A stretch of DNA of 64,000 nt from Sabellastarte sp. h YS-2021. Taxonomy: Eukaryota > Annelida > Polychaeta > Sabellida > Sabellidae. A program made the translations under genes and the position numbers. Below the pieces are notes generated by a model. It saw nothing but the letters and a program-made list of their open reading frames with translations, was not told the DNA's origin and searched no databases. The stretch covers positions 37,656,040 through 37,720,039 of the forward strand of contig OZ024936.1 of the NCBI GenBank assembly GCA_964017235.1, written 5' to 3'. How positions within the stretch are numbered: the first letter of the stretch is position 1; every line of letters begins with the position of its first letter. Below are positions 5,498-58,809 of this stretch, piece by piece.

Positions 5498-7623
5498 GTG
5501 AAAGTTATGTTTCGACAGGATAAGTATTTTTTCTTCGATCGTTTTCCTCAGGCAGGGGGAAACCGAACTTCAGAGGCTCCAGGGTTCGTTTTCGATCCCA
5601 CTCTAGGGGACGAGGGCGTGGAAACCCCTCCCACCAATGACTTCTTAAAAGCCTCCCTCAGTCCACCAGTAGGTCGCCTCCATTCTTTCAGAAGAGACTG
5701 ACAAACAAACAAATGTTCATTCAACGTGTTAAACATTATCACCAATGGCTACATTCTGCCATTCATTTCAAAACCAAGTCCGGTCAGATTCCCTCTGATT
5801 CAGTCAGAAATACAAGGCCCTTCAAAAAGATCAAGCTCTGGCCACTTGTATCCAGTCTCTTTTGTCAGAGAGTGCAATAGAAAGGGTGGAAAATGTAAAA
5901 TCTCTCGGGATTTACAGTCACCTGTTTCTAGTCCCCAAGCCTGACCAAAGGTGGAGGCCAGTAATAGACTTAAGCAGGCTCAAGACTTTTCTACATGTAG
6001 AAAAGTTCAAAATGGAAACTCCAGAGTTCATCAGGACCTCCCTGATTCCAGGGGAATGGATATCGTCGATAGACCTGTCGGAAGCTTACCTGCACATCCC
6101 CATCCACCCAAACTTAAGGAAATACCTAAGGTTTTGCCACAGGTCACAGGTGTTCCAGTTCACCTCCCTCCCTTTCGGACTAGCCACAGCCCCCCAGGTC
6201 TTTACAATGATTGTAAAGGCAGTGAAGCTAATGGCCCTCTCGAGGGGACTCAGACTTCACCAATACCTGGACGACTGGCTGATCAGGTCCCATTCTCAGG
6301 AAGAAGCCCAAGTGAACACGCAGGCAGTGGTAGACCTAACCCAGTCCTTGGGGTGGATAATAAATCAGGAAAAATCCGAACTAAAGCCAAATCAGGTGTT
6401 TTCGTTCGTGGGCTACGAATACCATCTAGATTCAGCCCTTGCAAAACCCACTCAAGAGAGATGGCTCAAACTTCAGGATTTGATCCTACGACTCAAGTCA
6501 AAAACATGTTTTGACTGCAAGATGTTTGATGTCGCTAATTGGGTTGCACTGGAGATATCGTCAGTTGCTGGACAGCCTCCTTCCTTGGACAGAAGCCATT
6601 TCTGCACACCTAGATTGGTGGCAAAATCCCTCAAACGTGATGAGAGGTGTAGATATTCATCCTAAAGACCACAGCATCCAACTCTTTACAGACACCTCAA
6701 ATGAAGGTTGGGGCGCTCACTTAGAACAAACCTCTACAAAGGGTCTGTGGTCAGACAAGGAAAAAAGGCTACACATAAATGTTCTAGAGTTGAAGGTGGT
6801 CTCACTGGTCCTTCAAAGCTTCAAGGATCAGTGTCAGAACCAAACAGTGTTGGTTACAATGGACAACTCAACAGTGGTAGCCTACATAAACAAACAAGGA
6901 GGAACTCATCTCAGCAGAGATGTGCACTCTCCTGTGGAAGATCATGACATGGTGCCATCACTACAGATGACATTGAAAGCCAGACACATTCCAGGGTGTC
7001 TGAATGTGATGGCCGACCTTCTATCCAGGTTGAACCAAGTTCAGTCAACAGAATGGTCACTGCACCCGCAGGTGTTCCATCAGATCTGCCAAAAGTGGTT
7101 CACTCCTCGTATAGATCTATTTGTCACTCATCAGAACCACAAACTTCCACTGTACGTGTCTCCAGTCCCAGATCCAAATGTTTGGGACATAGATGCTCTG
7201 AACATAAACTGGATGGGTCTCACTGCCTATGCTTACCCTCCGACAGCTCTCCTTCACAGGGTGATCCAAAAAATCAGGTAATGCCATTGCCTGATCATCG
7301 TAATAGCTCCAGGCTGGCCAGGGATGCCCTGGTTTTGGGACCTAGTGCAGCTCTCAACAGAGATCCCACTTCAACTTCCAGTGTCAACAACTCTTCTCAA
7401 ACAGTCCCACAAGTATTTGTTCCACTGCAATCCACAACATCTCAACCTCCACACCTGGTGTCTAGGAGTGGACAGTTCCAAGAACAAGGCTTCTCTGTGG
7501 AGGTGGCAGGGAGAATTGCTGCCCCTCAGAGGTCATCAACAAGGACCATCTACAAGTCAAAGTGGTCCCTATTTGAGAAATGGTGCAGATAAAACTCGGT
7601 GGATTTCTCCACTCCCTCTGTGA
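5498..7623 (+). pseudogene. RT / RNase H / methyltransferase-like ORF of copy A, broken
   Basis: Fragments match the B and C ORF end to end. A Trp-to-stop TGA lies at 5699-5701, a frameshift at about 5812, and RT proper (5862-6500) retains the first catalytic Asp in SSIDLSEAY and an intact YLDD box. Next come a one-base insertion near 6502, a deletion of about 70 bp near 6547, and an RNase H piece with TDTS and MDN blocks but a locally shifted frame at about 6907-6965. The methyltransferase-like domain (DLFVTHQNHKL) is cut by TAA at 7279-7281, where B and C have CAA. The frame then continues open to 7623. No functional protein is possible. Confidence 0.88.
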
Positions 7624-15803: not shown

Positions 15804-17970
15804 ATGTCGATTCACCAAGCAAATAAAGACAAACCGAGAGCTCAGAAATGCCGCCACTTTTGCTTCAGTTTTGATAAACATAACTACTGCCCTACCTGTA
15901 GGGAGGCTGGCAAGGGAGACGACCCCTGTGTCACCTTTGAATCACCCTGTCAAATCTGCACGTCTTTTTCAGATGAGCAGTTACAAAAAATTCAGAACAG
16001 GAAACGTTATTTAAAAAAGCAAAAAGCGGCAACTAGTTCCAAAGATGATGAACTAGATCTTTTGGGTGAAGGCGACGGGGATTCCTTCACTGGATCCAAT
16101 GCAGACCTCGAGTGTGCTGCTGATAACCTTTTCACCTCACCCCCCCGTCCTCAACCTCTTGCCTTCAGCTCCCTGTCCTTAAAAACTCCAGCCAAGACTG
16201 TTCCACCCACCCCAGGTACTGCTTTGCAAAATAAAATCCAGAAAAACCTTGAGAAATCCCTGGGGGATTCCTTAAATATACATATACAGCAGCAAATGGG
16301 TTCCTTCCAGGCATCCATGTTGGAAGCTTTTCAGTCACGCCGAGAGGAGTTGGCTACACAAAAGAAAGTCGAGGTAGAGTCCTCGCTTCTTGCTTCCAAA
16401 CCTGGCTCGTCCAGTAACAATGCTGCCCCTCTGGATTTACCCCCTCCGAGATCTGGTACTAACCTTCCAAGTGAGGCTATGGATGTGGACTACGGTCCAG
16501 CACTCCCTCCTCGTTTAGTAACCACTCAAGATTCCTCGGAGCAGTACGTTGCCCCCTCTGAAGGTCATCCCGAAGAGGTCTCGTACTCTCACAAAAAGCA
16601 AAGCCATAGGCAGCCAGTTGACCCGAGCTCTGCCTCCGACCAACGAAATGAGGATTCCGACGAACCTCGGATCCCTTCTTCTAGATCCAAAAAACACTCT
16701 GACAAGAGCAAACATAAATCAAGATCTAGATATGTGTCATTCTCTTCAGAGGAAGATCAGTCCCCTGTAGCCAGACACAGGTCTTCTAAGCCCTCTAGGG
16801 CTCAGCCCTCAGGAGTAGCTTCTGATCAAGACCTCCCACAACATGATCCAGACCCCCCTTTTTATAGGGAAGTAGCTTTGTCTGACATGCCCTCACAATA
16901 CTCCGAAGAAGTAGACACCTTCAGGCGTATTCTCTCTCTCCCTGACCCCAGGGAATCTATGCCCAGGTCGTCAACTTCGGTATTAGGTCTGGATGATGAA
17001 AAAGGCCGTCAAGAGCTCAGACCTAGAGGTCCTTCCTCTATCCTTCCACTTAGCTCAGTTATCAAGGACGCCTTTGATAAATTCCAACATGACTTTAAGG
17101 CTGCCAATTTATCTGAGGGAAAATATGTCAAGCCTCCTCCTTCCACTTCCAAGTGGTACAAGGTGGGACAGCCTACTTTTCAGGACAAAATTCAGGAGTT
17201 GAATATGGACTTTGCTAAGATCTGTATTACTCCTAGACCTTCTGGGGCCCCAGTAGCCAGAGTTCCCCTGCCAGTTCTCAAGGAGCTGGAACTTCAGGCT
17301 AGACGAAATATCTCAACCCTCAACTTCACCGCGGCATTTGCCAAAACCTCCTCTTCTTGCAATGCTTCATTGGAAAAATGCCAACATAGCATTAAGTCTA
17401 CTGTCAAGAAGAATAAATCTCAGATTCAGAAAGGTGCCAATCCTGAGAAAGCAGCAAAGCGCGGATATGAGGAAGTAGCTGACTACTTAGATTTTTGGAA
17501 CAAGACAGTACTTGTCCAACACAGGGCCCTCACTTGTCTCAGCAAATCTCTAGCCCATATTTTGCAGAGGGAATTATACTCTATGGCTAATACCGGCTTG
17601 CTCAGGCGCGAAGCCGAGATGACTATTACATCCACAATTAGGAGAAACGACGCGTCAAGAACTCAGGAACTCATCCTTTTGGGGCCCTTCCTTGTTCGAG
17701 TCTCAACTAGTGAAGGAAGGTGAGGACTTCCTTCTCAAAAAAGGCACCTCAAAAGATTCTCAGGGTTTTGCACCCTACCAGAATAAGCCCTTTCGTGGTC
17801 CCCACAAGAAAAGAGGCTCCTACAGAAAACGCCCCTATGGGGGCAATACCTCTCAAAGCAGTAACCAGTCCTTTCTCTCGGGAAGAGGAAAACCCAACTT
17901 CAGAGGCTCCAGGGGTCGTTTTCGACCCCACAATAGGGGAAGGTGGCGTGGAAACCCCCCTTCCCAATGA
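15804..17970 (+). pseudogene. gag: Gag-like ORF of copy B, one frameshift
   Basis: The first ATG downstream of the leader opens 639 codons ending at 17723. The N-terminus has a Cys/His cluster, C16, C20, H26, C29, C32, C42, C49, C52, with the blocks CPTCR and GDDPC, matching the D gag (DNHKKCVRCR, GDDPC). It probably binds zinc. A Ser/Pro/Lys-rich middle is followed by a region conserved in C (STSKWYKVGQP). One extra base in the run near 17683 shifts the frame. The continuation in the correct frame (17692-17970) encodes an Arg-Gly-rich, probably nucleic-acid-binding C-terminus. It ends at TGA 17968-17970, followed by C. Role by family: coat-like RNA-binding protein. Confidence 0.85.
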
Positions 17971-19705
17971 CTCCTCCAAAGCCTCAGTCAGTCCACCAGT
18001 AGGAGGTCGCCTCCGTTCTTTCAGGAGAGACTGGCTAACAAACAAATGTTCTCAAAACGTGTTAAACATTATCACCAATGGCTACGTTCTGCCATTCCGT
18101 TCAAAGCCAAACTTGATCAGATTTCCTCTGATTCTATCAGAGTACAAGGCCCAACAAAAAGACCAAGCCTTGGCCACTTGTATCCAGTCTCTCCTGTCAA
18201 AGAATGCCATTGAAAGGGTGAAAAATGTAAAATCTCTCGGGTTTTACAGTCGCCTGTTCCTAGTACCCAAGCCTCACCAAAGGTGGAGGCCAGTCATAGA
18301 CTTAAGCAGGCTCAACACTTTTCTACATGTAGAAAAGTTCAAAATGGAAACTCCAGAGTCCATCAGGACCTCCCTGATTCCAGGGGAGTGGGTATCGTCG
18401 ATAGATCTGTCAGACGCTTACCTGCACATCCCCATCCACCCAAACTCAAGGAAATACCTAAGGTTTTGCTACAAGTCTCAGGTGTTCCAGTTCACCTCCC
18501 TCCCGTTCGGGCTGGCCACAGCCCCCCAGGTCTTTACAATGATCGTAAAGGAAGTGAAACTAATGGCCCTCTCAAGAGGACTCAGAATTCACCAATACCT
18601 GGACGACTGGCTGATCAGGTCCCAGTCTCAGGAGGAAGCCCAAGTGAACACACAGGCAGTGGTAGACCTAACTCAGTCCTTGGGGTGGATAATAAATCAG
18701 GAAAAATCAGAACTGAAACCTACTCGGGTGTTTTCGTTTGTGGGATACGAATACCACCTAGATTCAGCCCTTGTAAAACCCACTCAAGAGAGATGGCTCA
18801 AACTTCAGGATTTGATCCTACGACTCAAGTCAAAACGTGTTTTGACTGCAAGATGTTTGATGTCTCTAATTGGGTTGCTAGCCTCAACGGAGAAAATGGT
18901 CCCGGAGGGACGCCTTCACATGAGGCCCTTTCAGTTTCATCTCAAGGAGCACTGGAGATATCCTCAGTCGCTGGACAACCTCCTTCCCAGGACAGAAGCC
19001 ATTGCAGCCCACCTAGACTGGTGGCAAAATCCCTCCAATGTGATGAAAGGTGCAGACCTTCATCCCAAAGACCACAGTATCCAACTCTTTACCGACGCCT
19101 CAAACGAAGGTTGGGGCGCTCACTTAGACCAAAATTCTACAAAGGGTCTGTGGTCCGATCGGGAAAAAAGGCTACACGTAAATGTCCTAGAATTGAAGGC
19201 GGTCTCCCTGGCCCTTCGAGACTTCAAGGACCAGTGCCAGAATCAAACAGTGTTGGTTGCGACGGACAACTCAACAGTGGTAGCCTACATCAACAAGCAA
19301 GGAGGAACACACTCAGCAGAGATGTGCGCTCTCCTGTGGAAGATCATGACCTGGTGCCATCACTACCACATAACATTGAAAGCCAGGCACATTCCAGGGT
19401 GCCTGAATGTGATGGCCGACCTACTATCCAGGTCCAACCAAGTGCAGTCAACAGAATGGTCTCCTATCCCAGACCCAAGGGCCTGGGACATAGATGCTCT
19501 GAACCTAAACTGGACCAACCTCACGGCCTATGCGTACCCTCCTACGGCCCTCCTTCACAAGGTGATCCAAAAGATCAGGCAATGTCATTGCCTGATCATC
19601 GTAATAGCCCCAGGCTGGCCAGGGATGCCCTGGTTTTGGGACCTAGTGCAGCTCTCAACAGAGATCCCACTGCAACTCCCAGTGTCAACGACCCTACTCA
19701 AATAG
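17720..19705 (+). CDS. Reverse transcriptase / RNase H / methyltransferase-like polyprotein of copy B
   Basis: The 661-codon ORF overlaps the end of gag in the +1 frame. RT spans residues about 180-350, with SSIDLSDAY carrying the first catalytic Asp and YLDD at 293-296. RNase H starts at TDAS (Asp459) and includes the VLELKA Glu and the ATDN Asp blocks. Downstream lies the domain that in DIRS elements resembles phage Dam-type adenine methyltransferases (APGWPGMPWF block). Compared with C and D, about 34 residues containing the DLFAT block are deleted in frame after EWS. A TAG at 19703-19705 (CAG in A and C) ends the ORF about 70 codons early; the same frame reopens at 19718-19924. RT and RNase H may still be functional, the last domain probably not. 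Confidence 0.88.
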   Translation: MRTSFSKKAPQKILRVLHPTRISPFVVPTRKEAPTENAPMGAIPLKAVTSPFSREEENPTSEAPGVVFDPTIGEGGVETPLPNDSSKASVSPPVGGRLRSFRRDWLTNKCSQNVLNIITNGYVLPFRSKPNLIRFPLILSEYKAQQKDQALATCIQSLLSKNAIERVKNVKSLGFYSRLFLVPKPHQRWRPVIDLSRLNTFLHVEKFKMETPESIRTSLIPGEWVSSIDLSDAYLHIPIHPNSRKYLRFCYKSQVFQFTSLPFGLATAPQVFTMIVKEVKLMALSRGLRIHQYLDDWLIRSQSQEEAQVNTQAVVDLTQSLGWIINQEKSELKPTRVFSFVGYEYHLDSALVKPTQERWLKLQDLILRLKSKRVLTARCLMSLIGLLASTEKMVPEGRLHMRPFQFHLKEHWRYPQSLDNLLPRTEAIAAHLDWWQNPSNVMKGADLHPKDHSIQLFTDASNEGWGAHLDQNSTKGLWSDREKRLHVNVLELKAVSLALRDFKDQCQNQTVLVATDNSTVVAYINKQGGTHSAEMCALLWKIMTWCHHYHITLKARHIPGCLNVMADLLSRSNQVQSTEWSPIPDPRAWDIDALNLNWTNLTAYAYPPTALLHKVIQKIRQCHCLIIVIAPGWPGMPWFWDLVQLSTEIPLQLPVSTTLLK

Positions 19706-32785: not shown

Positions 32786-32799
32786 CTCCTCTTGTTTTA

Positions 32800-34430
32800 A
32801 TAATTTTTAATGCATTAAAATTCATGAAATCATGCACTAAATCACTTATAACTTCAAAAGTGTTGCATTTACAGCATTTTGTGAAAATATGTTGTTCAGC
32901 TACTTTTTTCATAGCTACAATATGGTGAGTAAGTTGGGTGTCTGTCTCAATAGCTAAGTGAGTAATAGCTACTTTTGGGCTTTTCAGTAACTTCCATTAT
33001 GAGTAAAATCACTTGTAACTTAAAAACTATTGCATTTAGAGAATTTCGTATAAATATGTTATTCAGCTACTTTTGGGCCAGCTATAACATAGTGAAATTT
33101 CAGACCTGTAGCTCATGGCATAGCTGAGTAATAGCTACTTTTAGGTTATCACTGTTGAGTAAATCGCTTATAACTTGAAAACTATTGCATTTAGAGAATT
33201 TCGTATAAATATGTTATTCAGCTACTTTTGGGCCAGCTATAACATAGTGAAATTTCAGACCTGTAGCTCATGGCATAGCTGAGTAATAGCTACTTTTAGG
33301 TTATCACTGTTGAGTAAATCACTTATAACTTGAAAAGTGTTGCATTTAGAGCATTTTGTTAAAATATGTTATTCAGCTACTTTTTTCATAGCTACAATAT
33401 GGTGAGTAAGTTGGGTGTCTGTCTCAATAGCTAAGTGAGTAATAGCTACTTTTGGACTTTGCAGTAACTTCCATCATGAGTAAAATCACTTGTAACTTAA
33501 AAACTATTGCATTTAGAGAATTTCGTATAAATATGTTATTCAGCTACTTTTGGGTCAGCTATAACATAGTAAAATTTCAGACCTGTAGCTCATGGCATAG
33601 CTGAGTAATAGCTACTTTTAGGTTATCACTGTTGAGTAAATCACTTATAACTTGAAAACTATTGCATTTAGAGTATTTTGTTTCATATGTTATTCACCTA
33701 TTTTGGGGTCAGCTATAACATAGTGAAGTTTCAGACCTGTGGCTCATTTCATAGCTGAGTAATAGCTACTTTGAAGTTCTCACTGTTGAGTAAATTAGTT
33801 ATAATTGGAAAACTATTGCATTCACAGAAATTTGTGCAAATATGTTATTGAGCTACTTTTGGGTCAGCTATAACATAGTGAAATTATAGACCTATAGCTC
33901 ATGGCACAACTGAGCAATAGCTATTCTCAGGTACTGACTGTTGAGTAAATCAGCTATAACTTGAAAAATATTGCATTTGGAGTATTTTGTTAAAATATAT
34001 TGTTCACCTGCTTTTGGGTCAGCTATAACATAGTGAAATTACAGACCTATAGCTCATGGCATAGCGGAGCAATAGCTATTTTCAGGTTCTCACTATTGAG
34101 TAAATCAGTTGTAGCTTGAAAACTATTGCATTTACAGTAGTTTGCTTAAATATGTTGTTCACCTACTTTTGGGTTAGCTATAACATAGTAAAATTTCAGA
34201 CATGTAGCTCATTGCATAGCTGAGTAATAGTTCCTTTGAGGTTCTCACTGTTGAGTAAATCAGTTGTAACTTGAAAACTATTACATTTAGAGTAATTTGT
34301 TAAATATGTTATTCACAGAATTTTTGGTCAGCTATAACATAGTGAAATTGCAGACCTGTATGTCATGGCATAGCTGAGCAATAGCTACTTTCAGGTTCTC
34401 ACTGTTGAGTAAATCATTGTATCCACTGGA
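32800..34430 (+). repeat. S3 satellite array of copy 4, about 10 monomers
   Basis: Same 155-bp monomer as 28690-31690. The phrase 'CATAGCTACAATATGGTGAG' that opens the array recurs at about 33385, so part of the array was duplicated as a block of about 490 bp. Confidence 0.88.
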
Positions 34431-42998: not shown

Positions 42999-43188
42999 TT
43001 TTATTGCGTTAATACATCCTATCCAATGGACAATTGCTTTACCGGTCGGCGCGACCGGTCCCGCCAAACGCCAGAAAAAGACGTCCTGTATATACTACCG
43101 GCAGGACCGGTCACAGAGTGTGCATTCGCCAGGTGGCGCATCGTACTTCATTTCCTGTTTACCTATTGACGTCATAGCATCTTTTTCG
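42999..43188 (+). repeat. Left inverted terminal repeat of copy D
   Basis: Matches the reverse complement of 49121-49290. Contains a palindrome ACCGGTC-GGCGC-GACCGGT (43039-43057) and a TGACGTCA motif (43168-43175), which resembles a CRE/ATF site and may be part of the promoter. Confidence 0.9.
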
Positions 43189-43312
43189 TTTGGCGCGAAA
43201 GAGTGTGCAGAAGATTTTCTTCAGAGATACGTTTTTGAAGTTTTACAACGAACTCTTCCAAGTTTCTTGTTTTTTATTAGTACGGAGTAATTCTACAACG
43301 TTACTGATCATT

Positions 43313-45337
43313 ATGTCGTCTCCTGGACAGAAACGAGGTTCTTGCGGGCACGTTATGGCCCTTTTCGACAACCATAAGAAATGCGTGCGTTGTCGTGACA
43401 AGGGGGTGGGAGACGACCCGTGTGTGAAGAAGTTGCCTTGTAGTATCTGTAAGGCGTTTACGCCTGCTCAGATTCACCAGTTAGCAACCCCCACCTATAA
43501 GGAACGGAAAGAACGCTCTAGCCAGAAGAAATCTGAAGAATTGACAAGTACGTCTCCCAAGCTTGTTGATCCGTCTGAGGTTTCACTGCTGGGTCCAGTC
43601 AACTCAGGGACGCAGTCTCCTGTTGATTCTACACCCAAGCAGAAGAAGAAGCGTTCTGATGGCTCCCCAAGGTCTAGTAAACGGAAGCACAGCAGTAAGC
43701 CCACTTCAGATGACCTCAAGTCCCTTGATGACAAGTGGAGTGAGAGATTTTCCCGTCTGGAAGCAATGCTGGTTAACCAGTCATTTGCTGTCCCTGTGAG
43801 ACCGGTGAATTCTGCTTCTGTGGTGCCCAGAGAACACCCCTTCTTTGATCCGGGTGCTTCTACAAGTGTTATGTTTGCTGAGGGCACTAGTGACGTTGCT
43901 ACGCAGTTGACGGCTACCCAACCTCCGCTGGGGGTTCCCGGTACACAAGCTGTGAAGGAAGTGACTAAGAGTGCTACCCACCCTGTTCAGGGCCCCGGTA
44001 CCTCTGAGACTGTTGCCACCCAACCTTTACTGGTTCCCGGTGCAGGGACTGCCACCCAGCCTCCACAGGCTCCCGGTGCGGGTCCTGAGGTTCTGCCTTC
44101 CGGTTATGAAACTACGCTGTCTAACCAGTCGCCTCCCATTGGCCAGAATTCTGAGGTTGCTAGGGAATCTGACAGTGAGGCTGAGGTGGATGCGGAACCG
44201 GCTTCACCGGCTAGTGTTCACTACCAGGGTGATGTACCGGAATCTAACACTGACCAGGATCTTTCTGAAGATGCTAATTACCGGGAAACATTGAGAGGGG
44301 TGAGGAGTTTCATGGGCTGGCATCAAATCCCGGATTATGACACCTCAGCTGCATCTATGGATGACAATCCCTTTGCCGGTTCTAGAGTGAAGACTACCGG
44401 TAAAGTGTCAGTAAAATTGCCGGTGGATGAATGGCTTTGTAAAAAGCTGGAGAAACTAAATATAACTATTGCTGAAGGTTATCCTTCCAGGAATACAGAA
44501 ACCAGTGGTCTGCTGCGTGACCAATTTGTCAAGACACCCCGTACTTCCAAGTGGTACGACATGCAAGCTGTTAAGAAGGATGCGTCTAACCAGGCTGTTG
44601 GTGACTGGTCTCCGGAACCGGCAAAGCTTAACAGTATGTTTTCTAGAGTTGCAAGGCGCAGTTTACCTTCTGCCCCAGCTTCCAGGACCTTCAGCCAGGA
44701 CACCCTTAGAAGGTGGGAGAGGTCATTCAGAGAACAATCAGTGATGTGTAATCACGCTGCTGGCCTCTCTAGATGCCTCACCAAAGTACAGGACTCCATG
44801 GTCACCCAGTTAAAGTCCCTGAGGTTCGATTCCTCAAAGGGCAAAAGTGCTGAGAAACAACAACAAGCTGTTGAAGAACTGGAATATCTGGTTACGTTTA
44901 ACCGGTCAATTTCACAGGCTATGTAGCGTACCATGCAGGATTTATCAGAGGGAGTCTTTATCAGCATGGCTAATCTCACCCTGGCCCGTCGGGACAGTTA
45001 TTTAGAGTTCATAAGGGGTGGCATTAAACTGGACACCTTGTCTGCCTTACGTACGTCTCCAGTTCACCAACTATCACTCTTCCCGGACAGCTTACTGGTC
45101 AAAGCTGAAGAGGAAATCTTACGTAGTGAAGAGAGGCGTTCTGCTGGTACCACACCAAGGAAACCTGGACGTTTTCATCCATACGTCTCCTCCAATCGAA
45201 CCCCTCACCAGCCGGACCGGAAGCCCACTACTCCGGCATGGAAGCAGATTAGAGACCGGCAAACTGCTCAGAAAGGGGGTGGTAAAGCCTCAAACTTCAG
45301 CCAGAAGCCGGCCAGAGGTTTTAAAAAGCATAAATGA
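43313..45337 (+). pseudogene. gag: Gag-like ORF of copy D, interrupted by one in-frame TAG
   Basis: I start at ATG 43313 (MSSPGQKRG) because it aligns with the start of the B gag; an upstream in-frame ATG at 43190 exists. The N-terminal Cys/His cluster is C11, H21, C24, C27, C37, C43, C46 with GDDPC, as in B. The middle is Ser/Pro/Thr-rich with repeated LGVPG/LLVPGAG-like phrases. A block with TSKWYDMQAV matches the B and C STSKWYKVG block. The frame hits TAG at 44924-44926 (codon 538), where B has CAG-type Gln by alignment. It then continues in the same frame for 136 codons to a basic C-terminus and TGA at 45335-45337. A nonsense mutation is likelier than programmed readthrough. Confidence 0.88.
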
Positions 45338-47666
45338 CAATCACTGTTTTGCAAATGTGGTCGGATTGGTGAACTCTGTAAATGTATCCGACAAGATGGA
45401 GGGCTTGAACCCACCACCACCAGTGACAAACAAGAGCGAGACTGTGTTTCCACATGTAAACTCTTTTGTTGCAAGTGTTCCTTTTGTCAGCGGGTCACCG
45501 CAAAAGAAAGGTGTAAATCCCGTTTATTGTCAATCTATCAGAGAAATAAACCATGTGAAAGATGTTTCCTGTGTAGATCACTTGAGTTTTGTAAATATTG
45601 TCACAAATGTCCAAACTGTTGTCACAAATCTTCCTGTAGGGGCAAGACTTCAGCAGTTTTGGAAAAAGTGGGAAACTCTGGGTGCGAGTCCAAAAGTTAT
45701 CAGAATACTGAGAGAGGGCTACACCCTTCCCTTCCGGTTCAGACCCAACCTAACCAGGTCACCAATGGTCATCAGCAAATATGTAAACCCCCAAAGACAG
45801 GCCTTCCTTTTGGAGGCACTGACTCAGCTAACAAACAAGAATGCAGTAGAACCGGTAACAAATCAGACCTCCCTAGGGTTTTACAACCGGCTATTTTTGG
45901 TTCCCAAACCCAACAACCGGTGGAGACCTATCTTGGACCTGAGCACTTTGAACACCTTTTTAAACACAGAGTCGTTCAAGATGGAGACCCCAGAGACAAT
46001 AAGAACCTCCCTACAGGCAGGGGAGTGGGTCACATCCATAGACTTCAAAGACGCTTACTTCCACATTCCAATTCACAGTCAGTCAAGGAAGTACATGCGT
46101 TTTCACATTCAGGGCCACTCCTACCAGTTCAAGGCCCTGCCCTTTGGTCTTTCCACAGCACCCATGGAGTTCACAGTGGTGGCCAAAGAGGTCAAGCTCA
46201 TGGCCTTACAACAGGGTATAAGAATCCACCAGTACCTAGACGACTGGCTGGTGAGGGCCTCTACCCTCCACACCTGTCTCCAGCATACTCAAACCCTGGT
46301 CACTCTTTGTCAGGAACTAGGGTGGCTGGTGAACAAGGAAAAGTCAGAACTGGCACCCAAACAGGTCTTCAACTTCGTAGGTTACCAGTTCGACCTGAAA
46401 GAGGGCAAGGTCAGACCAACAGAAGACCGTTGGCAGGCCTTGACAGACAAAATCAGATCAATGATGTCGGATCCGGTTTGTCCGGTCCGGAAATTCATGT
46501 CCCTCATAGGTCTCCTCACAGCAACAGAAAAACAAGTCCACTTAGGGCGACTCCACATGAGATCCATACAGTGGCACTTGAAAAACAATTGGAGGGTCCC
46601 AGAGTCACTGGAAAAGGTGATACCGGTCCCCAAGTCCCTCCACCCTCATCTAAGGTGGTGGCTGGAGGAAGGCAATGTGCTACTAGGTCAACCATTACAC
46701 CCTCTAAAACATGCTCTGCAGATCTTTACAGACGCATCAAACGAAGGGTGGGGCGCTCACTTGGACGACCATACTGCAAGGGGAACCTGGTCCCTTCCAG
46801 AAAGCAAGTTGCACATAAACCACTTAGAGCTAAAAGCAGTTTTTCTAGCTCTAAAGGAGTTTCGAACCCTGGTCTGCAACAAGACTGTGTTGATAGCTAC
46901 AGACAACACAACAGTGGTTGCCTATATCAACAAAGAAGGGGGGATGAAGTCGGGGTCACTGTGTGCCCTACTGTGGAGAATCCTGTCCTGGTGCACCAGA
47001 CAACAGGTAACCCTCAGGGCACGTCACATCCCCGGCCGGCTGAACATGATAGCAGACAAGCTATCCAGACTTGGCCAGACCATTCAAACAGAGTGGTCAC
47101 TTCATCCAGCAGTATTCCAAGCTGTATGCGCAAGGTGGCACCAGCCAAAAGTGGACCTGTTTGCCACCAGGTTCAACAACAAACTACCTCAGTTTGTGTC
47201 ACCGGTGCCAGACCCCCAGGCTTGGGCAGTGGATGCACTCAGTCTCTCCTGGGAGTACCTGGACCCATACGCCTTCCCACCGGCAGCCATCTTGGGCAAA
47301 GTGGTGGAGAAGCTCCAGGACTACCCCTGCAACAGAATAATCCTGATTGCCCCAGGGTGGCCCAACATGCCCTGGTTTTGGGACCTGGTAGCAATGTCAA
47401 GCCAGATCCCACTCTGTCTGCCCAGCATACCAAACCTTGTGTCTCAGCCATTCAACCAGGTCCTTCACAGGAACCTGTCGAATCTGAACCTACATGCCTG
47501 GCTCCTAGAGCCTCAGCAATCAAGGAGCAAGGCTTCTCTGAGGCAGTGGCAGCACGAATTGAGGCTCCTCAAAGAAGATCAACCAGATCTGTCTATGAGG
47601 CAAAGTGGACCATTTTTACAAAGTGGTGCCTCAGTAATCAGGTGGACTTCAGGGCACCACCTCTGA
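45018..47666 (+). CDS. Reverse transcriptase / RNase H / methyltransferase-like polyprotein of copy D
   Basis: 882 codons, intact, overlapping gag by 320 bp in the +1 frame. The first 200 residues are a reading of gag and spacer sequence. RT: SIDFKDAY (Asp342), LPFGLSTAP (374-382), YLDD (406-409), FNFVGY (451-456). RNase H: TDAS (Asp572), LELKA (Glu604), ATDN (Asp629) and MIAD (Asp680), so all four acidic residues are present. The C-terminal domain (about 690-830) has KVDLFAT, PVPDPQAW and LIAPGWPNMPWF, matching the Dam-like methyltransferase domain known in DIRS elements. It copies element RNA into DNA. The start is uncertain; +1 frameshifting from gag or internal initiation are both possible. 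Confidence 0.93.
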   Translation: MALNWTPCLPYVRLQFTNYHSSRTAYWSKLKRKSYVVKRGVLLVPHQGNLDVFIHTSPPIEPLTSRTGSPLLRHGSRLETGKLLRKGVVKPQTSARSRPEVLKSINDNHCFANVVGLVNSVNVSDKMEGLNPPPPVTNKSETVFPHVNSFVASVPFVSGSPQKKGVNPVYCQSIREINHVKDVSCVDHLSFVNIVTNVQTVVTNLPVGARLQQFWKKWETLGASPKVIRILREGYTLPFRFRPNLTRSPMVISKYVNPQRQAFLLEALTQLTNKNAVEPVTNQTSLGFYNRLFLVPKPNNRWRPILDLSTLNTFLNTESFKMETPETIRTSLQAGEWVTSIDFKDAYFHIPIHSQSRKYMRFHIQGHSYQFKALPFGLSTAPMEFTVVAKEVKLMALQQGIRIHQYLDDWLVRASTLHTCLQHTQTLVTLCQELGWLVNKEKSELAPKQVFNFVGYQFDLKEGKVRPTEDRWQALTDKIRSMMSDPVCPVRKFMSLIGLLTATEKQVHLGRLHMRSIQWHLKNNWRVPESLEKVIPVPKSLHPHLRWWLEEGNVLLGQPLHPLKHALQIFTDASNEGWGAHLDDHTARGTWSLPESKLHINHLELKAVFLALKEFRTLVCNKTVLIATDNTTVVAYINKEGGMKSGSLCALLWRILSWCTRQQVTLRARHIPGRLNMIADKLSRLGQTIQTEWSLHPAVFQAVCARWHQPKVDLFATRFNNKLPQFVSPVPDPQAWAVDALSLSWEYLDPYAFPPAAILGKVVEKLQDYPCNRIILIAPGWPNMPWFWDLVAMSSQIPLCLPSIPNLVSQPFNQVLHRNLSNLNLHAWLLEPQQSRSKASLRQWQHELRLLKEDQPDLSMRQSGPFLQSGASVIRWTSGHHL
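45350..45637 (+). other. Cys-rich zinc-finger-like segment in the Gag/YR frame of copy D
   Basis: Starting four codons after the gag TGA and in the same frame, about 96 codons encode 20 Cys. They include CKC, CKLFCCKCSFC, CERCFLC and CKYCHKCPNCC, spaced like zinc-binding knuckles. The overlapping RT frame here is only a V/N/S-rich stretch. The segment is in frame with YR downstream; the ATG at 45527 lies within it. No counterpart is seen in A, B or C. Confidence 0.6.
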
Positions 47667-48580
47667 AGGCCATTGCTGACTTCCTCCTGCACTTGTTCCA
47701 GGACAAGAAGTTACAACCAGGCACTATTGATGGCTACAGATCAGCCATTGCTGACAAACTGGGCAATTCCACCATTAATGTCAGCAAAGATGAGAATCTC
47801 ACTCGTCTCCTGGATAGTTTCCATAGAGACAGACCTAAGGGCAGGAGGGGCATCCCCTCCTGGAACCTTTCACTGGTTTTACATCAGCTCACGAAGGCTT
47901 CTTTTGAACCCCTGAAAGAGTCCTCCTTGAAACATTTAACTTTCAAGACTGTTTTCCTGCTGGCTTTGGGTTCAGGTAAACGCAGGAGTGAGATCCATGC
48001 TTGGTTACATAAGAACATCAGACACCAGTCAGACTGGTCTAAGGTGTCTTTGTACCCCTCACCCAGCTTCCTATCCAAGAATCAGCTGGCTAAGGAAGGT
48101 CCAGATAGTGTGGCACCAGTGGTCATCCCAGTCCTGGCACCATCTCTGGATAGGTCACTCAAGGGTGACAGGTCCCTATGTCCAGTTAGAGCCCTGCGTT
48201 ACTACTTGGACAGGACTGCAGACCTCAGGCAGAATAAGGAGTTAGTCTTTGTCTCCTTCAAGAAGGGTTTTGATAAAGACATCTCGCCTGCCACCATCTC
48301 CTCATGGATCAAACAGACTGTGGTTCTGTGCTATGAGCTCTCTGACCAGGAGGCCCTCACCTTACATCAGGTTAAAGCCCATGATGTTAGGGCCTTTGCT
48401 GCTTCTAAGGCTTTCCAATCAGGGATCTCCTTAGATCAGATCTTGTCAGCCTGCCACTGGAAATCTCACAACACCTTCACCCAATTCTATTTGAAGGATG
48501 TTGCCTGGGCTGACTCAGAGCTTTTCCATCTGGGACCTGTAGTGGCTGCCCAGCAGGTGCACCTCCAGGCCCAGAAGTGA
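45527..48580 (+). CDS. Tyrosine recombinase ORF of copy D
   Basis: 1017 codons, intact, one frame behind RT and overlapping it by 2.1 kb. From the ATG the first 45 residues are Cys-rich, followed by about 600 residues of Gly/Pro/Ser/Arg-rich low-complexity reading of the RT region. The recombinase domain starts near residue 665 (EQGFSEAVAARIEAPQRRS). Catalytic set: Arg819 in SGKRRSEIHA, His952 and Arg955 in KAHDVRAFAAS, His977 in ACHW, Tyr988 in NTFTQFYLKD, so fully conserved. It would recombine the circular copy into the genome. The same frame is open upstream to the gag TGA, so the product could start earlier. Confidence 0.93.
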   Translation: MSIYQRNKPCERCFLCRSLEFCKYCHKCPNCCHKSSCRGKTSAVLEKVGNSGCESKSYQNTERGLHPSLPVQTQPNQVTNGHQQICKPPKTGLPFGGTDSANKQECSRTGNKSDLPRVLQPAIFGSQTQQPVETYLGPEHFEHLFKHRVVQDGDPRDNKNLPTGRGVGHIHRLQRRLLPHSNSQSVKEVHAFSHSGPLLPVQGPALWSFHSTHGVHSGGQRGQAHGLTTGYKNPPVPRRLAGEGLYPPHLSPAYSNPGHSLSGTRVAGEQGKVRTGTQTGLQLRRLPVRPERGQGQTNRRPLAGLDRQNQINDVGSGLSGPEIHVPHRSPHSNRKTSPLRATPHEIHTVALEKQLEGPRVTGKGDTGPQVPPPSSKVVAGGRQCATRSTITPSKTCSADLYRRIKRRVGRSLGRPYCKGNLVPSRKQVAHKPLRAKSSFSSSKGVSNPGLQQDCVDSYRQHNSGCLYQQRRGDEVGVTVCPTVENPVLVHQTTGNPQGTSHPRPAEHDSRQAIQTWPDHSNRVVTSSSSIPSCMRKVAPAKSGPVCHQVQQQTTSVCVTGARPPGLGSGCTQSLLGVPGPIRLPTGSHLGQSGGEAPGLPLQQNNPDCPRVAQHALVLGPGSNVKPDPTLSAQHTKPCVSAIQPGPSQEPVESEPTCLAPRASAIKEQGFSEAVAARIEAPQRRSTRSVYEAKWTIFTKWCLSNQVDFRAPPLKAIADFLLHLFQDKKLQPGTIDGYRSAIADKLGNSTINVSKDENLTRLLDSFHRDRPKGRRGIPSWNLSLVLHQLTKASFEPLKESSLKHLTFKTVFLLALGSGKRRSEIHAWLHKNIRHQSDWSKVSLYPSPSFLSKNQLAKEGPDSVAPVVIPVLAPSLDRSLKGDRSLCPVRALRYYLDRTADLRQNKELVFVSFKKGFDKDISPATISSWIKQTVVLCYELSDQEALTLHQVKAHDVRAFAASKAFQSGISLDQILSACHWKSHNTFTQFYLKDVAWADSELFHLGPVVAAQQVHLQAQK

Positions 48581-48584
48581 GGAG

Positions 48585-48692
48585 ATGTTGTATATATGTA
48601 AATATGTACATATTGTAAATATGCTAGATATGTACATAATGTAAATATGTTGAATGTACATATATGTTCAAAAAAAAAAAAAAAAAAAAAAA
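48585..48692 (+). repeat. Microsatellite-like TA-rich repeats and A-run in the D 3' untranslated region
   Basis: Reiterated TATGTAAATATGTACATA-type units are followed by a run of about 22 A (48671-48692), right after the YR stop. Could be slippage-prone element sequence. Confidence 0.7.
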
Positions 48693-48781
48693 CTGTGACT
48701 TGCTTCCTTTGGGAAGTTTATTTCTTCTGGGACTGAACTCAGCCCCTCTCTCTCTCTATCTTTCCAACTCAGACCAACTCT

Positions 48782-48806
48782 GAAAGGAAAGAAAAAGGGG
48801 GGGGGG
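48782..48806 (+). other. Polypurine tract with 10-G run in copy D
   Basis: A purine-only stretch, GAAAGGAAAGAAAAA then a G-run, lies about 200 bp after the YR stop. It is comparable in form and order to the tracts of A, B and C although the surrounding sequence is unrelated. Confidence 0.8.
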
Positions 48807-48963
48807 CAACGTCGGTAGGCTCCCGGTTAACCGGTGAGTTAGTGACAGACCCTGACCTTTCAGGGTTCTCTGACCCTAGGTCAAATGGGCCTGTTAAAAA
48901 TTGTTGTTATGAGTTCACATAAGTCCCTAGCTGCTTACCCGCCTACCAAGCGGTAGTTATTCA

Positions 48964-49060
48964 GCAATTGTCCATTGGATAGGATGTATTAACGCAATAA
49001 AATTGCAAATTTAATAAGTAAATTAAATTTTTATAAGTTAATACCCTATCCAATGGACAG
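48964..49060. repeat. ICR of copy D
   Basis: 48964-49002 is the reverse complement of the left outer end and 49003-49060 of the right outer end, joined directly. This defines the boundaries of D at 42999 and 49333. Confidence 0.92.
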
Positions 49061-49120
49061 GCAAGGCCCACCCAACCGGCCCCGCTATCAGCTTACTAGG
49101 GGTCTTACTAGGATTAGACA

Positions 49121-49333
49121 CGAAAAAGATGCTATGACGTCAATAGGTAAACAGGAAATGAAGTACGATGCGCCACCTGGCGAATGCACACTCTGTGACC
49201 AGTCCTGCCGGTAGTATATACAGGACGTCTTTTTCTGGCGTTTGGCGGGACCGGTCGCGCCGACCGGTAAAGCAATTGTCCATTGGATAGGGTATTAACT
49301 TATAAAAATTTAATTTACTTATTAAATTTGCAA
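49121..49333 (-). repeat. Right inverted terminal repeat of copy D
   Basis: Reverse complement of the left repeat, including the CGCGCCGACCGGT and TGACGTCA blocks, plus a right-end-specific outer segment repeated only in the ICR. Confidence 0.9.
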
Positions 49334-49459
49334 AATTGTCTGATTAATGGGAACACAAATCACTCATGTAGTGTTCATCACAAATAATTCACATATAACT
49401 CAGAAATAATTAATTCATAATGTGCTTGTATATTTGTTACAGGTAAGCATTATAAAATT

Positions 49460-53491: not shown

Positions 53492-53656
53492 TTTTATTAC
53501 GCTACAATAGCTTACCATATGGGACTCAATGCTGTTCTCGGATGGCCACAAGGCATTATGGCCAACGTCTAAGAAAAATAGACATTTATAGTTGGCCGTA
53601 GCCTCAAGTTGTCGTCACGTGATAACTTCTGACCAATCGCCCTACTTTCTCGTTGG
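53492..53656 (+). repeat. Left inverted terminal repeat of copy C
   Basis: Carries GCTTACCATATGGGACTCAA, the CACGTG E-box (53617-53622) and CTTTCTCGTTGG. It is the reverse complement of 58621-58765. Confidence 0.88.
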
Positions 53657-53882
53657 CCACGTTGAACTGGTAGCTTTCTGCAAATTATACAGACATTTTC
53701 ATTTATATCTCAGCTTTTACGTATTGTTGGAGGTTTATTTTTGGTTATTTCTTTTATTATATTACATGGATTATTCTGTAAAATTTCTGTTTTGACAGGA
53801 TAAGTATGTTTCTTATTTTCGCGTGTTTTGAGTTTTCCTCGGTTCAGGCTTTTTTACATCTACATCTTTTATTGCGTTTAAA

Positions 53883-55023
53883 ATGTCCACCCATCAAACG
53901 AATAAAGACAAACCGAGAGTTCAAAAATCCCGCCATTTTTGTTTTTCCTTTGATTTACACAACCATTGCCCTACTTGTAGGGAATCTTGCAAGGGTGATG
54001 ACCCCTGTGTCACCTTTGAAGCGCCCTGTGATATCTGTGCATCTTTCACAGATGACCAAATGAACAAAATTCAACACAGGAAACGCTATATAAAGAAACC
54101 AAAGGTGGACGCTTCTAATGCAAAAGATGATGAACTTGATCTTTTGGGTGAGGGCGACGGGGATTCTTTCACTGGTTCAAATGCAGACCTTGAGAGTGCT
54201 GCAGACAATCTATTTACCTCACCACCAACCCCCCCCCCCCAACCCCCCCCAACCCCCATCCTCAGCCCCTACCCTTCAGTTCTTTGTTGCTCAAAACTCC
54301 AGCCAAAACTGTCCCACCCACCCCAGGTACTGCCTTGCAGTAGGGAAGTCTATGCCTAGGTCCTCAACTTCAGTCATGGGTCTGGACGATGAGAAAGGCC
54401 GTCAAGAGCTCAGACCTAGAGATCCTTCCTCTATACTTCCACTTAGCTCAGTTATCAAAGACGCCCTTGATAAATTTCAACATGACTTTAAGGCCGCTAA
54501 TTTACCCGAGGGTAAATATATCAAACCTCCTCCTTCCACTTCCAAGTGGTACAGGGTGGGACAGCCCTGTTATCAGGACAAATATCAGGAGTTGAATACG
54601 GATTTTGCCAAAATCTGTATTACTCCTAAACCCCCTGGGGCTCCTATGGGCAAGGTTCCCCTACCAATTCTTAAAGAATTGGAACACCAGGCTAGGCAAA
54701 ATATCTCCACGCTCAACTTCACTGCTGCCTTTGCCAAAACTTCATCTTCTTGCAGGTCTCAACTTGTGAAGGAAGGTGAAGACTTCCTCCTCAAAAAAGG
54801 CACCTCTAAAGACTCTCAGGGTTTCGGACCCTATAAGCCCTTTCGTGGTCCCCACAACAAGAAAAGAGGCTCCTACAGGAAACCCCCCTATGGGGGCAAC
54901 TCCTCACAAAGCAGTAACCAATCGTTTTCCTCAGGAAGGGGGAAACCAAACTTCAGAGGCTCCAGGGGTCGTTTTCGACCCCACCACAGGGGGCGGGGGC
55001 GTGGAAACCCCTCTCCCCAATGA
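53883..55023 (+). pseudogene. gag: Gag-like ORF of copy C with two deletions
   Basis: The N-terminus matches B (Cys/His cluster with CPTCRESCKGDDPC). A C-rich tract of over 30 bases (about 54229-54260) lies in the Pro-rich region. Relative to B, about 725 bp is missing after 54335 and about 335 bp after 54753. The first frame ends at 54359. The second frame (54118-55023) carries the rest, including STSKWYRVGQP and the Arg-Gly-rich C-terminus. The frame ends at TGA 55021-55023, followed by C. Confidence 0.85.
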
Positions 55024-57063
55024 CTCTTTAAAAGCCTCCCTCAGTCCACCAGTAGGAGGTCGCCTCTGTTCTTTCAGAAGAGACTGGCAAACAAACAAAT
55101 GTTCTTCAAACGTGTTAAACATTATCACCAATGGCTACGTACTGCCATTCCTTTCAAAACCAAATTTGGTCAGATTCCCTCTGATTCTGTCAGAGTACAA
55201 GGCCCGTCAAAAAGACCAAGCACTGGCCACTTGTATCCAGTCTCTCCTGTCAAAGAACGCAATCGAAAGGGTGGAAAATGTAAAATCTCTAAGGTTTTAC
55301 AGTCGCCTGTTCCTAGTACCCAAGCCTCACCAAAGGTGGAGGCCAGTCATAGACCTAAGCAGGCTCAAAACTTTTCTACACATAGAAAAGTTCAAAATGG
55401 AAACTCCAGAGTCCATCAGGAGCTCTCTGATTCCAGGGGAATGGGTATCGTCGATAGATCTGTTGGACGCTTACCTACTCATCCCCATCCATCCAAATTC
55501 GAGGAAATACCTAAGGTTTTGCTACAAGTCTCAGGTGTTCCAGTTCACCTCCCTCCCATTCGGACTAGCCACAGCCCCCCAGGTCTTTACAATGATTGTA
55601 AAGGAAGTGAAGCTAATGGCCCTCTCCAGAGGACTCAGACTTCACCAATACCTGGACGACTGGCTGATCAGGTCCCAGTCTCAGGAGGAAGCCCAAGTGA
55701 ACACTCAGGCGGTGGTAGACCTAACCCAGTCCTTGGGTTGGATAATAAATCAGGAAAAATCAGAACTGAAACCTACTCAGGTGTTTTCGTTCGTGGGCTA
55801 CGAATACCATCTAGATTCAGCCCTTGTAAAACCCACTCAAGAGAGATGGCTCAAATTTCAGGATTTGATCCTACGACTCAAGTCAAAACATGTTTTGACT
55901 GCAAGATGTTTTGTTGTCGCTAATTGGGTTGCATGCCTCAACGGAGAAAATGGTCCTGGAGGGACGCCTTCGCATGAGGCCCTTTCAGTTTCATCTCAAG
56001 GAGCACTGGAGATATCCTCCTTCCTTGGACAGAAGCCATTGCAGCCCACTTAGACTGGTGGCAAAATCCCTCAAACGTGATGAAAGGTGCAGACCTTCAT
56101 CCCAAAGACCACAGTATCCAACTCTTTACAGACGCCTCAAACGAAGGTTGGGGCGCTCACTTAGATCAAAATTCTACAAAGGGTCTGTGGTCAGACCGGG
56201 AAAAAAGGCTACACATAAACGTCCTAGAATTGAAGGTGGTCTCCCTGGCCCTTCGAAGCTTCAAGCACCAGTGCCAGAACCAAACAGTGCTAGTTGCAAC
56301 GGACAACTCAACAGTGGTAGCCTACATAAACAAACAAGGAGGAACTCACTCAGCAGAGATGTGTGCTCTCCTGTGGAAGATCATGACCTGGTGCCATCAC
56401 TATCACATAACATTGAAAGCCAGACACATTCCAGGGTGTCTGAATGTGATGGCCGACCTTCTGTCCAGGTCAAACCAAGTGAAGTCAACAGAATGGTCAC
56501 TGCATCTGCAGGTGTTCAAACAGATCTGCCAAAAGTGGTTCAAACCTCATGTAGACTTATTTGCCACTCATCTGAACCACAAACTTCCACTGTACGTATC
56601 TCCTGTCCCAGACCCAAAGGCTTGGGACATAGATGCTTTGAACATAAACTGGACGGGTCTCACTGCCTATGCTTACCCTCCAACGGCTCTCCTTCACAGA
56701 GTGATCCAAAAAATCAGGCAATGCTATTGCCTAATCATCGTAGTAGCCCCAGGCTGGCCAGGGATGCCCTGGTTTTGGGACCTAGTGCAGCTCTCAACAG
56801 AGATCCCACTGCAACTTCCGGTGTCAACGACTCTTCTCAAACAGTCCCACAATTATGTGTTCCACAGCAATCCACAGCATCTCAACCTCCACACCTGGTG
56901 TCTAGGAGTGGACAGCTCCAAGAACAAGGCTTCTCTGTGGAGGTGGCAGAGAGAATTGCTGCACCTCAGAGGTCATCAACAAGAACCATCTACAAGTCAA
57001 AGTGGGCCTTATTTGAGAAATGGTGCAGAGAAAATTCGGTGGACTTCTCCACTCCATCTGTGA
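54776..57063 (+). pseudogene. RT / RNase H / methyltransferase-like ORF of copy C, two indels
   Basis: The RT part (54776-55910) is open and has the catalytic blocks SSIDLLDAY and YLDD. A one-base insertion near 55909 and a 17-bp deletion near 56019 throw it out of frame. The frame then resumes at 56077 with an RNase H having TDAS, VLELK, ATDN and VMAD. The methyltransferase-like domain is complete (HVDLFAT, PVPDPKAW, APGWPGMPWF), with the full C-terminus ending at 57063. C is useful as the reference for the segment deleted from B. Confidence 0.88.
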
Positions 57064-57959
57064 AACAAGTCTCAGATTTTTTCATGTACCTGTACCAAGA
57101 TCTAAACAGGCACCCCTCCACCATCGATGGTTACAGGACAGCCATTGTTGACACTTTGGGCGCAACGGGCCACCATATTGCACAAAGTTCAGACCTTCAT
57201 AGGTTACTCTCCAGCTTTCACAGCGATCGTCCCAAAAGTTCCAGGAATCTTCCTAAGTGGAACCTTTCTGTTGTTCTTAATGAGCTCACAAAAGCACTCT
57301 TTGAGCCTATGAAAGACACATACCTCAAACATCTTACTCTCAAAACTGCTTTCTTGCTAGCTTTGGCCTCCGGCAAGCGCCGCAGCGAAATCCATGCCTG
57401 GGTTGCAAACAAAGTATCTAATCTAGGCCATTGGGAAAAGGTGGCCTTGTTCCCTTCTTCTGACTTCATAGCCAAAAACCAACTAGCAAGACAAGGTTCT
57501 CAAAGTGTGTCTCCGGTGACTATTCCTGCTTTGACTACCATTGTAGATAGACAATTCAAAGAAGACAGGACCCTGTGTCCAGTGCGGGCCCTGAGGTACT
57601 ATTTGGATCGAACCAAAGACCTGAGAGGGTCTCGATCCCTCCTTTTAATCACCTTCAAGAAAGGACAAACCTCAGACATCAGACCCGCTACTCTCTCTTC
57701 CTGGTTGAAACAGACCATTCTACTTTGTTATAAACAAGCAGACCAACAAGCCTTGGACTTGGTCCAAGTTAAAGCGCATGACATCCGGGCCTTCGCAGCC
57801 TCTAAGGCCTTTTACAGTGGGGTATCGGTGGACCAAATCATGCAAGCCTGTCACTGGAAAGCTCACAACACATTTACAAATTTTTACCTAAAAGACCTTG
57901 GTCAGACAACGACAACAATATGTATCTGGGACCCGTGGTGGTGGCACAACAAGTCCTAG
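55099..57959 (+). pseudogene. Tyrosine recombinase frame of copy C, disrupted
   Basis: The YR frame is open from the gag TGA (55023) through 55923, is broken by the same two indels as RT, and resumes to 57959. The long ORF starting at 55911 therefore begins with about 35 RT-frame residues fused to the YR frame. The recombinase proper (from about 56920) keeps the first Arg (codon 57378, in SGKRRSEIHA), the HDIR block and the nucleophile Tyr in NTFTNFYLKD. A four-base deletion at about 57899 changes the tail after the Tyr. The catalytic domain could fold, but expression is doubtful. Confidence 0.82.
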
Positions 57960-57986
57960 ACCCTTCCCCTCAGACCAGTTGTCCTC

Positions 57987-58009
57987 GGAAAGAAAAAAAG
58001 GGGGGGGGG
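57987..58009 (+). other. Polypurine tract with G-run in copy C
   Basis: Purine-only stretch GGAAAGAAAAAAA then a 10-G run, at the same place relative to the YR region as in A and B. Confidence 0.8.
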
Positions 58010-58484
58010 CACATCCGCTACAACCAAGTCTTCAAGAGTCTATCACAGGATCTAGGTATTCTTTTACCTTCAAGATGTTACGGGTAAGGTCATTTTGTTT
58101 TTTAGTTTATCAAACTAATATGTATTAAGGACTTATTAAAGTTGTCATTAATCTCATATTCGGTGGCAAAAAATTTTATGAGAATTCCAACCATTGGGCT
58201 GGTCTGTCACTCGTGAAGGGCCCCTAAGGACCCTTAGACCTCTAAGTGAGCACTGCTGCACTTCCGTCCTACAATCAAAACATCTAGACAGTTTTTAGCA
58301 CTGTCTTGCATTCTATTTAGGTTTTTGGCTCTTTACAGGCCCGGTCTTCGGGATTGGGGCACTGTAAACGGGACTCAAACTGGTATTTCTAACACTCTTT
58401 CTAATAAATATTACTTCAAATCTAAGAAAAATTGACATATCTTCCAGTCTCAGCTGTAATACCGCCACCAGGCAGTTGGATTCA

Positions 58485-58578
58485 GCATTGAGTCCCACAT
58501 GGTAAGCTATTGTAGCGTAATAAAATTGAAAATTTTAATTACTTAAATGTAGCTTTTATAAGCTACAAGCTTACCATG
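58485..58578. repeat. ICR of copy C
   Basis: 58485-58525 is the reverse complement of the left outer end and 58526-58578 of the right outer end, joined at AATAAAA/TTGAAAA. Confidence 0.9.
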
Positions 58579-58620
58579 CCTCCCCGCTGTTTACAGCTGA
58601 GGGGTAGGTTTAAAAAATTT

Positions 58621-58809
58621 CAACGAGAAAGTAGGGCGATTGGTCAGAAGTTCTCACGTGACGACAACTTGAGGCTACGGCCAACTATAAATGTCTATTT
58701 TTCTTAGACGTTGGCCATGATGCCTTGTGGCCATCCGAGAACAGCATTGAGTCCCACATGGTAAGCTTGTATCTTATAAAAGCTACATTTAAGTAATTAA
58801 AATTTTCAA
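58621..58809 (-). repeat. Right inverted terminal repeat of copy C
   Basis: Reverse complement of the left repeat plus the right-end-specific outer segment. Two mismatches to the left repeat were noticed over about 130 bp. Confidence 0.9.

Follow-up and report, generated by a model that had tools for sequence, protein, structure and literature searches.

The 64,000-nucleotide window analysed here (positions 37,656,040 to 37,720,039 of contig OZ024936.1, assembly GCA_964017235.1, from the sabellid annelid Sabellastarte sp. h YS-2021) contains the DIRS1-like elements D (from the inverted terminal repeat, ITR, at 43018-43189 to the ITR at 49120-49291, + strand), B (15429-21657), C (53509-58767) and copy A (about 5216-9135; its gag has no match to the gag of B or D), plus an older remnant. 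Gag and the tyrosine recombinase (YR) of D occupy a single reading frame interrupted by one UGA followed by C, with the reverse transcriptase (RT) between them in another frame. Analysis of this arrangement in the window and across the 1.79-Gb genome suggests that the gag stop is probably a programmed readthrough site, at which DIRS1-like elements would produce a Gag-YR fusion.

The genes of D all lie on the + strand. Gag (43313..45337) carries a premature TAG (44924-44926) and terminates at the UGA of the proposed readthrough site AAA TGA CAA TCA (45332..45343); its first part (43313-44923) has no Pfam match. The RT/RNase H open frame (45012..47666) is +1 of the gag frame, with RT-domain homology from 45630 (LPVGARLQ), YLDDWL at 46233-46250, and Pfam matches to RVT_1 (5.3e-23) and RT_RNaseH (4.8e-6); no methyltransferase domain after RNase H was matched by Pfam in the RT open reading frames (ORFs) of D and B. 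The gag/YR frame past the UGA (45338..48580; first ATG at 47126, no AUG before codon 597) traverses a segment ahead of the RT domain (45338..45629) with a Cys-rich module from about 45440, overlaps RT, and ends with the YR domain (47564..48577). That domain bears GKRRSEIHAW (47975-48004), HDVR (from 48380) and FY (near 48488); R, HxxR and Y motifs can be seen in both D and B, and we take them, by resemblance to the known motif, to be the catalytic residues. The Pfam Phage_integrase match of D (0.0006, residues 870-1053) is under the curated cut-off, and the YR of B has no Pfam match.

Re-reading of the frames bore out the sequence-only reading, which had placed a TGA-C gag stop at 45335 in D, 17968 in B and 55021 in C, with YR in the gag frame and RT in the +1 frame. 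Beyond that stop the frame stays open in D for 1,081 codons to the TGA at 48578, in C for 300 codons to 55921, and in B for 81 codons to a TGA at 18211, then for 921 codons to 20974; C has no stop at the place equivalent to 18211. The gag-end stops on the + strand read CAA TGA CTC CTC in B (17965..17976; the YR frame runs on to 20976 with the one TGA at 18211) and CAA TGA CTC TTT in C (55018..55029), and the homologous stop of copy A reads CAA TGA CTT CTT (5635..5646, TGA at 5638). Differences between B and either C or A in the YR-only part are concentrated at third codon positions.

Two caveats attach to the window copies. The premature TAG at 44924 is private to the D of the window among the 16 D-family slices read in the right orientation (out of the 30 loci L009-L038, which include D itself); the sole other slice of the 16 with any upstream gag stops is L031, which diverges upstream and has different ones. 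The main gag frame of B terminates at TGA-G (17721), and the tail ending at TGA-C is frame-shifted against it; no such shift separates main gag end from tail in 25 of 30 B-family copies, where both lie in the frame that TGA-C closes (in L050, the last part only), the exceptions being B itself, L042, L055, L064 and L066. The same 12 bases surround the stop in 30/30 D-family and 29/30 B-family copies, a uniformity that is weak evidence because the copies were picked by similarity over the tested region. No YR-frame stop occurs within 667 codons past the gag stop in 24 of 30 D-family copies.

A broader sample came from 15 further loci (L069-L083), which are not random: 12 were picked for different spellings of the RT motif and three for further spellings. 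Gag ends at TGA-C in ten (L069, L070, L071, L073, L076, L077, L078, L080, L082, L083) and at TGA-T in one (L079), and four lack a resolvable gag end (L072, L074, L075, L081); no resolved locus ends gag at TAA or TAG. The sequence-only reading had named arrangements of intact copies that would count against it, gag and YR in different frames or several stops between them, and neither was found. In L076 and L083, the only unbroken slices, gag and YR form one frame that is open over the whole slice except for one TGA; the RT of L076 is 52-54% identical to those of D and B. In L077 the frame runs for 1,024 codons past the TGA before an indel interrupts it, and the remaining TGA-C loci are broken somewhere by indels or stops. 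Two of the unresolved loci (L074 and L075, old relatives) have a short-period repeat array in their first ~750 bases, in place of the expected gag end. The diverged family represented by L079 has a gag with an Arg/Gly-rich tail followed by CAA TGA TAC, at oriented positions ~541-613.

Junction peptides extend the comparison to many more copies. A 150-residue query across the L083 junction, with TGA read as Trp, gave 16,436 candidates; among the best 150, TGA lay within the match in 150/150, and was the sole stop there, occurring once, in 121/150. Among the best 150 of 2,530 for the L076 junction, the corresponding figures were 147/150 and 134/150. These copies are the best-scoring ones, mostly close relatives, and include the query's own locus. 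Open frames of at least 1,700 residues are listed for nine of the best 150 L083-type copies and of at least 1,500 residues for 65 of the best 150 L076-type copies; such frames pass over any stop within the match, and a TGA outside it may end them; among the junction copies only the L076 and L083 slices had their frames read on the letters.

The openness of the YR frame over RT is not due to chance. When the RT protein was held fixed, RT codons were shuffled synonymously and YR-frame stops were counted, D had 0 stops against 24.8+-3.8 expected (minimum 14 in 2,000 shuffles) and B had 1 against 20.2+-3.3. Over ~490-498 RT codons the observed number was 0 against 16.7 (D), 16.5 (L083), 21.4 (L077) and 23.2 (L076), and none of 5,000 shuffles reached 0 in any of the four; the third frame of the same stretches has 39-46 stops. 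Openness is all that is kept in the gag/YR frame over the RT overlap, where its amino-acid sequence is unconstrained, because dN/dS there is ~2.1 in the gag/YR frame and 0.08-0.10 in the RT frame (3 of 6 pairs; dS is saturated in the other three), as expected if ribosomes must pass. Two other candidate signs were discarded. Openness of the RT frame ahead of the RT domain is uninformative, with 0-1.0 stops expected when the gag/YR protein is fixed. Depletion of YR-frame AUGs is clear in D only (0 against 6.2 expected); the corresponding values are 8 against 7.5 in L083, 4 against 6.5 in L077, 2 against 5.4 in L076 (P 0.03) and 5 against 6.0 in B.

Directly after the UGA, the pattern of selection is the reverse. 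The RT domain of the D-type families starts 271-325 nt past the UGA, and the intervening segment encodes, in the gag/YR frame of D, L078, L083, L080, L077 and L071, a Cys-rich module of similar spacing (C-x3-CC-x2-C-S-x-C ... C-x2-CF-x-C-x5-C-x2-C-x-K-C-x2-CC; D has one residue fewer between CC and C). Nei-Gojobori dN/dS of this segment is 0.21-0.49 (mean 0.36) in all ten pairs compared in the gag/YR frame, 0.64-1.22 (mean 0.93) in the RT frame, and 0.78 on average in the third frame; the segment is broken by indels in L069 and L073 and absent from B, C, A, L070, L082 and L076, none of which was used. Mean pairwise identity among five families is likewise highest in the gag/YR frame, at 0.476, with 0.354 for the RT frame and 0.333 for the third; the gag/YR frame still leads once Cys columns are removed from it (0.397) and Val/Ala from the RT frame (0.341). 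Because dN/dS turns over where the RT domain starts, the frame under selection is gag/YR before that point and RT after it, and from there on the gag/YR frame is only kept open. The sequence-only reading had looked to conservation of UGA-C and of the open frame, with purifying selection before the YR domain; by dN/dS this held for the first ~100 codons past the UGA in the D-types, and it failed for amino-acid constraint over the RT overlap. The module had no Pfam match to E=5 with peptides of three families and, for D, no match among Protein Data Bank (PDB) sequences to E=1; being Cys-rich, it would probably bind metal.

The stop itself is embedded in a conserved context. AAA TGA CAA TYA, which is stop-CARYYA, is common to seven families (D, L069, L071, L073, L077, L080, L083) that are mutually no more than ~81% alike among the nucleotide comparisons listed, and is also present in L078, of the family of D. 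Stop-CARYYA is the readthrough motif of tobacco mosaic virus (TMV), and AAA-UGA-CAA-UYA is its UGA form. The pattern AAANNNNAATYANTGT, in which the stop and the next base are free and the flanks fixed, and which samples D-type families only, has 20,305 matches in the genome against 10,606 in a reversed control. When the first 100 of these places were crossed with the first 100 places of the RT motif, TGAC was found at 30/30 sites linked to RT (200-1,600 nt upstream of the motif) and at 9/70 unlinked sites. In an OPRL1 reporter context, according to the part of the report available, UGA-CARYYA gives ~15% readthrough, UGA being similar to UAG, and UAA much lower (PMC4132726). Selenocysteine decoding of the UGA was considered and rejected, no SECIS family being among the Rfam matches to E=1 over 43018-49350.

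Taken together, these results support the interpretation, made in the sequence-only reading, of a Gag-YR readthrough product. Most ribosomes would terminate at the UGA and release Gag; a fraction would decode UGA-C as an amino acid, stay in frame, pass the short Cys-rich module in the D-type families and then several hundred codons overlapping RT, and enter YR. The predicted product is a Gag-(Cys module)-YR fusion of roughly 1,500-1,760 residues, which may carry YR into Gag particles together with the RNA. We consider programmed readthrough likely because ~1,000 codons are free of stops, unconstrained over RT, and selected right after the UGA and in the YR-only part.

Several points weigh against it. 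The context is not uniform: B, C, A, L070 and L076 have UGA-CUY and L082 has UGA-CCC instead of CARYYA, both weaker matches to a leaky stop than UGA-CARYYA; L079 and L057 are exceptions with TGA-T; and the best 150 L076-type junctions include two copies that carry TAA but no TGA and one that is free of stops. The 667 codons past the stop are free of stops in only 11 of 29 B-family copies, and the gag of L077 has a premature TAG. The ten dN/dS pairs of the Cys segment derive from five single copies, two of them decayed, and are non-independent, with high dS (0.67-2.35); the codon-position signal of the segment is unclean, L077 and L071 having 26 differences at each position and the position 1 differences between L083 and L077 nearly equalling those at position 3. 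RNA structure after the stop does not stand out against shuffles (z 0.14 in D, -1.40 in B), although a stimulating structure accompanies programmed readthrough in some cases only and is not obligatory for it. The analogous gag-UGA-pol junction of Tca2 from Candida, in the accessible part of its description, directed no readthrough in yeast (PMC2194720).

The position of RT raises a wider, more tentative possibility: that the UGA-C is a three-way switch, at which Gag would come from termination, Gag-(Cys)-YR from readthrough and Gag-RT from a +1 shift at or beside the stop. In D, B, C and 8 of the 10 further TGA-C loci, RT occupies the frame directly +1 of that of the TGA-C; indels lie between stop and RT in L069 and L073, and in the decayed L079 RT is first met in another frame. 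RT homology in L076 begins 2-4 codons past the UGA, with a stop 149 nt upstream in the RT frame. A separate conserved RT leader is not evident in the D-types because the RT frame ahead of the RT domain is without clear protein constraint. If such a switch operated, all enzymes of the element would be Gag fusions, made in set ratios from one RNA; we regard this as less likely than not.

Among the alternatives to readthrough, the one that survives best, while still unlikely, is termination followed by reinitiation, or a non-AUG start, with ribosomes restarting 6 nt past the UGA at NTG (ATG, CTG or TTG) to make a separate Cys-YR protein without Gag. The third codon past the stop is indeed ATG in L077 and L083 and CTG or TTG in D, L080, L069 and L073, and the 30 RT-linked sites have ATG 7, CTG 13, TTG 10 and GTG 0 times, the TG being fixed by the search pattern; yet L071, B, C and L076 lack an NTG at this position, and the first AUG of D comes only at codon 597. 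Nor would reinitiation require the downstream frame to be that of gag, yet the two are the same in the resolvable copies.

Splicing that takes out the UGA or links gag to YR, with the shared frame as a by-product, appears very improbable. Frames compatible with splicing would look identical, but a gag-YR splice would have no need of a stretch over RT that is free of stops for hundreds of codons and otherwise unconstrained, and the conserved stop context would be left unexplained.

Slightly less credible again is translation of YR from its own internal start, with the open overlap as the relic of a once longer YR ORF. Some AUGs do lie 60-160 codons upstream of the YR domain, and long pol/YR ORF overlaps are described for half of 28 DIRS1-like elements in the portion of that survey available (PMC3266345). 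Such a start is disfavoured because it would not need an open frame, because the five families compared have no AUG position in common, and because D has no AUG for 596 codons; moreover, a leftover ORF would gather stops, of which four families have none, and the gag/YR frame of the D-types is under selection directly past the UGA.

Least probable of all is that the overlapping RT frame (AAT GAC, Asn-Asp), and not decoding, holds UGA-C constant: that frame does read N-D at the stop in 12/12 translated TGA-C sequences, but RT alone does not explain the invariance of TGA-C because T and C are synonymous third positions in it (AAC and GAT would keep Asn-Asp) and are nevertheless invariant across the 30 linked sites. 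Elsewhere in RT, families differ at 69-77% of synonymous sites, and the RT frame at this stretch has a dN/dS near 0.9 in the D-types.

The termini of the elements and their surroundings complete the description of the window. The left ITR of D (43018..43189, +) is 99% complementary to the right ITR (49120..49291, +) over 172 nt; the ITRs of B and C measure 149 nt (99%) and 147 nt (98%). The internal complementary region of D (48988..49059, +) pairs with 49277-49348, and that of B, near its 3' end (21383-21450), with 21638-21705. Rfam microRNA matches (mir-590, MIR8706) at 48969-49059 are weak, far under their gathering scores, and probably due to chance. The older, diverged DIRS remnant (663-3295), whose RT is ~27% identical to that of D over a 517-column match, apparently belongs to a lineage separate from A-D. 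A degenerate codon pattern for YLDDWL, derived from the RTs of the window, has 20,559 matches in the genome against 15 in a reversed control; the DIRS load of the genome is very large and includes young families of near-identical copies. A 155-bp tandem repeat forms a long array at 28742-34401, with copies mostly >80% alike and weaker relatives near 23460 and at 60087-61392; further tandem arrays lie at 61506-63141 and 59959-61442, with periods of ~143 and ~321 bp by self-match offsets.

Two results go beyond the sequence-only reading: the TMV-type stop-CARYYA context in seven families, and the Cys-rich module under selection past the UGA, a conserved module, unmatched in Pfam, that comes to light only on reading through the stop. 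With ~20,000 copies of the RT motif, the genome offers an extensive natural collection of candidate readthrough sites, UGA-CARYYA and UGA-CUY side by side. If the interpretation is correct, a Gag-YR fusion would be a testable answer to how three overlapping genes are expressed from one RNA and how YR enters the replication particle. No account of readthrough in DIRS elements was recognised in the open PubMed Central literature, a search outside which the founding DIRS papers fall.

The elements share with described DIRS1-like elements the ITRs, the internal complementary region, the order gag, RT/RNase H, YR and the long YR/pol overlap (PMC3266345); that description, in the part available, presents three ORFs, and a gag-YR frame across one UGA, a readthrough motif and a Cys module after gag are absent from it. 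Accounts of the DIRS elements of Xenopus (PMC9210276) and Dictyostelium (PMC5633606), likewise available in part, give three partly overlapping ORFs. The YR protein of ALOG-type DIRS1 elements of Ectocarpus has an N-terminal zinc-ribbon-like part, as far as the accessible description goes (PMC3537659), whereas here the Cys module comes immediately past the gag UGA, ~640 codons ahead of the YR domain. At weak stops, termination, readthrough and frameshifting compete, and antizyme OAZ1 resembles the present case, in the section of the source available, in having a weak UGA with competing frames (PMC9841425); here RT is +1 of gag, and a +1 shift at the stop would be a possible parallel.

Murine leukaemia virus reads through a UAG between gag and pol. 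The elements described here have in common with that gag-pol readthrough, and with the TMV signal, a single stop ahead of an in-frame enzyme and, in the D-types, the CARYYA match; they differ in that the enzyme fused to Gag would be a tyrosine recombinase, that RT lies between in another frame, and that no 3' structure is seen. If readthrough occurs as proposed, the recombinase would ride with Gag much as integrase rides with Gag-Pol in retroviruses.

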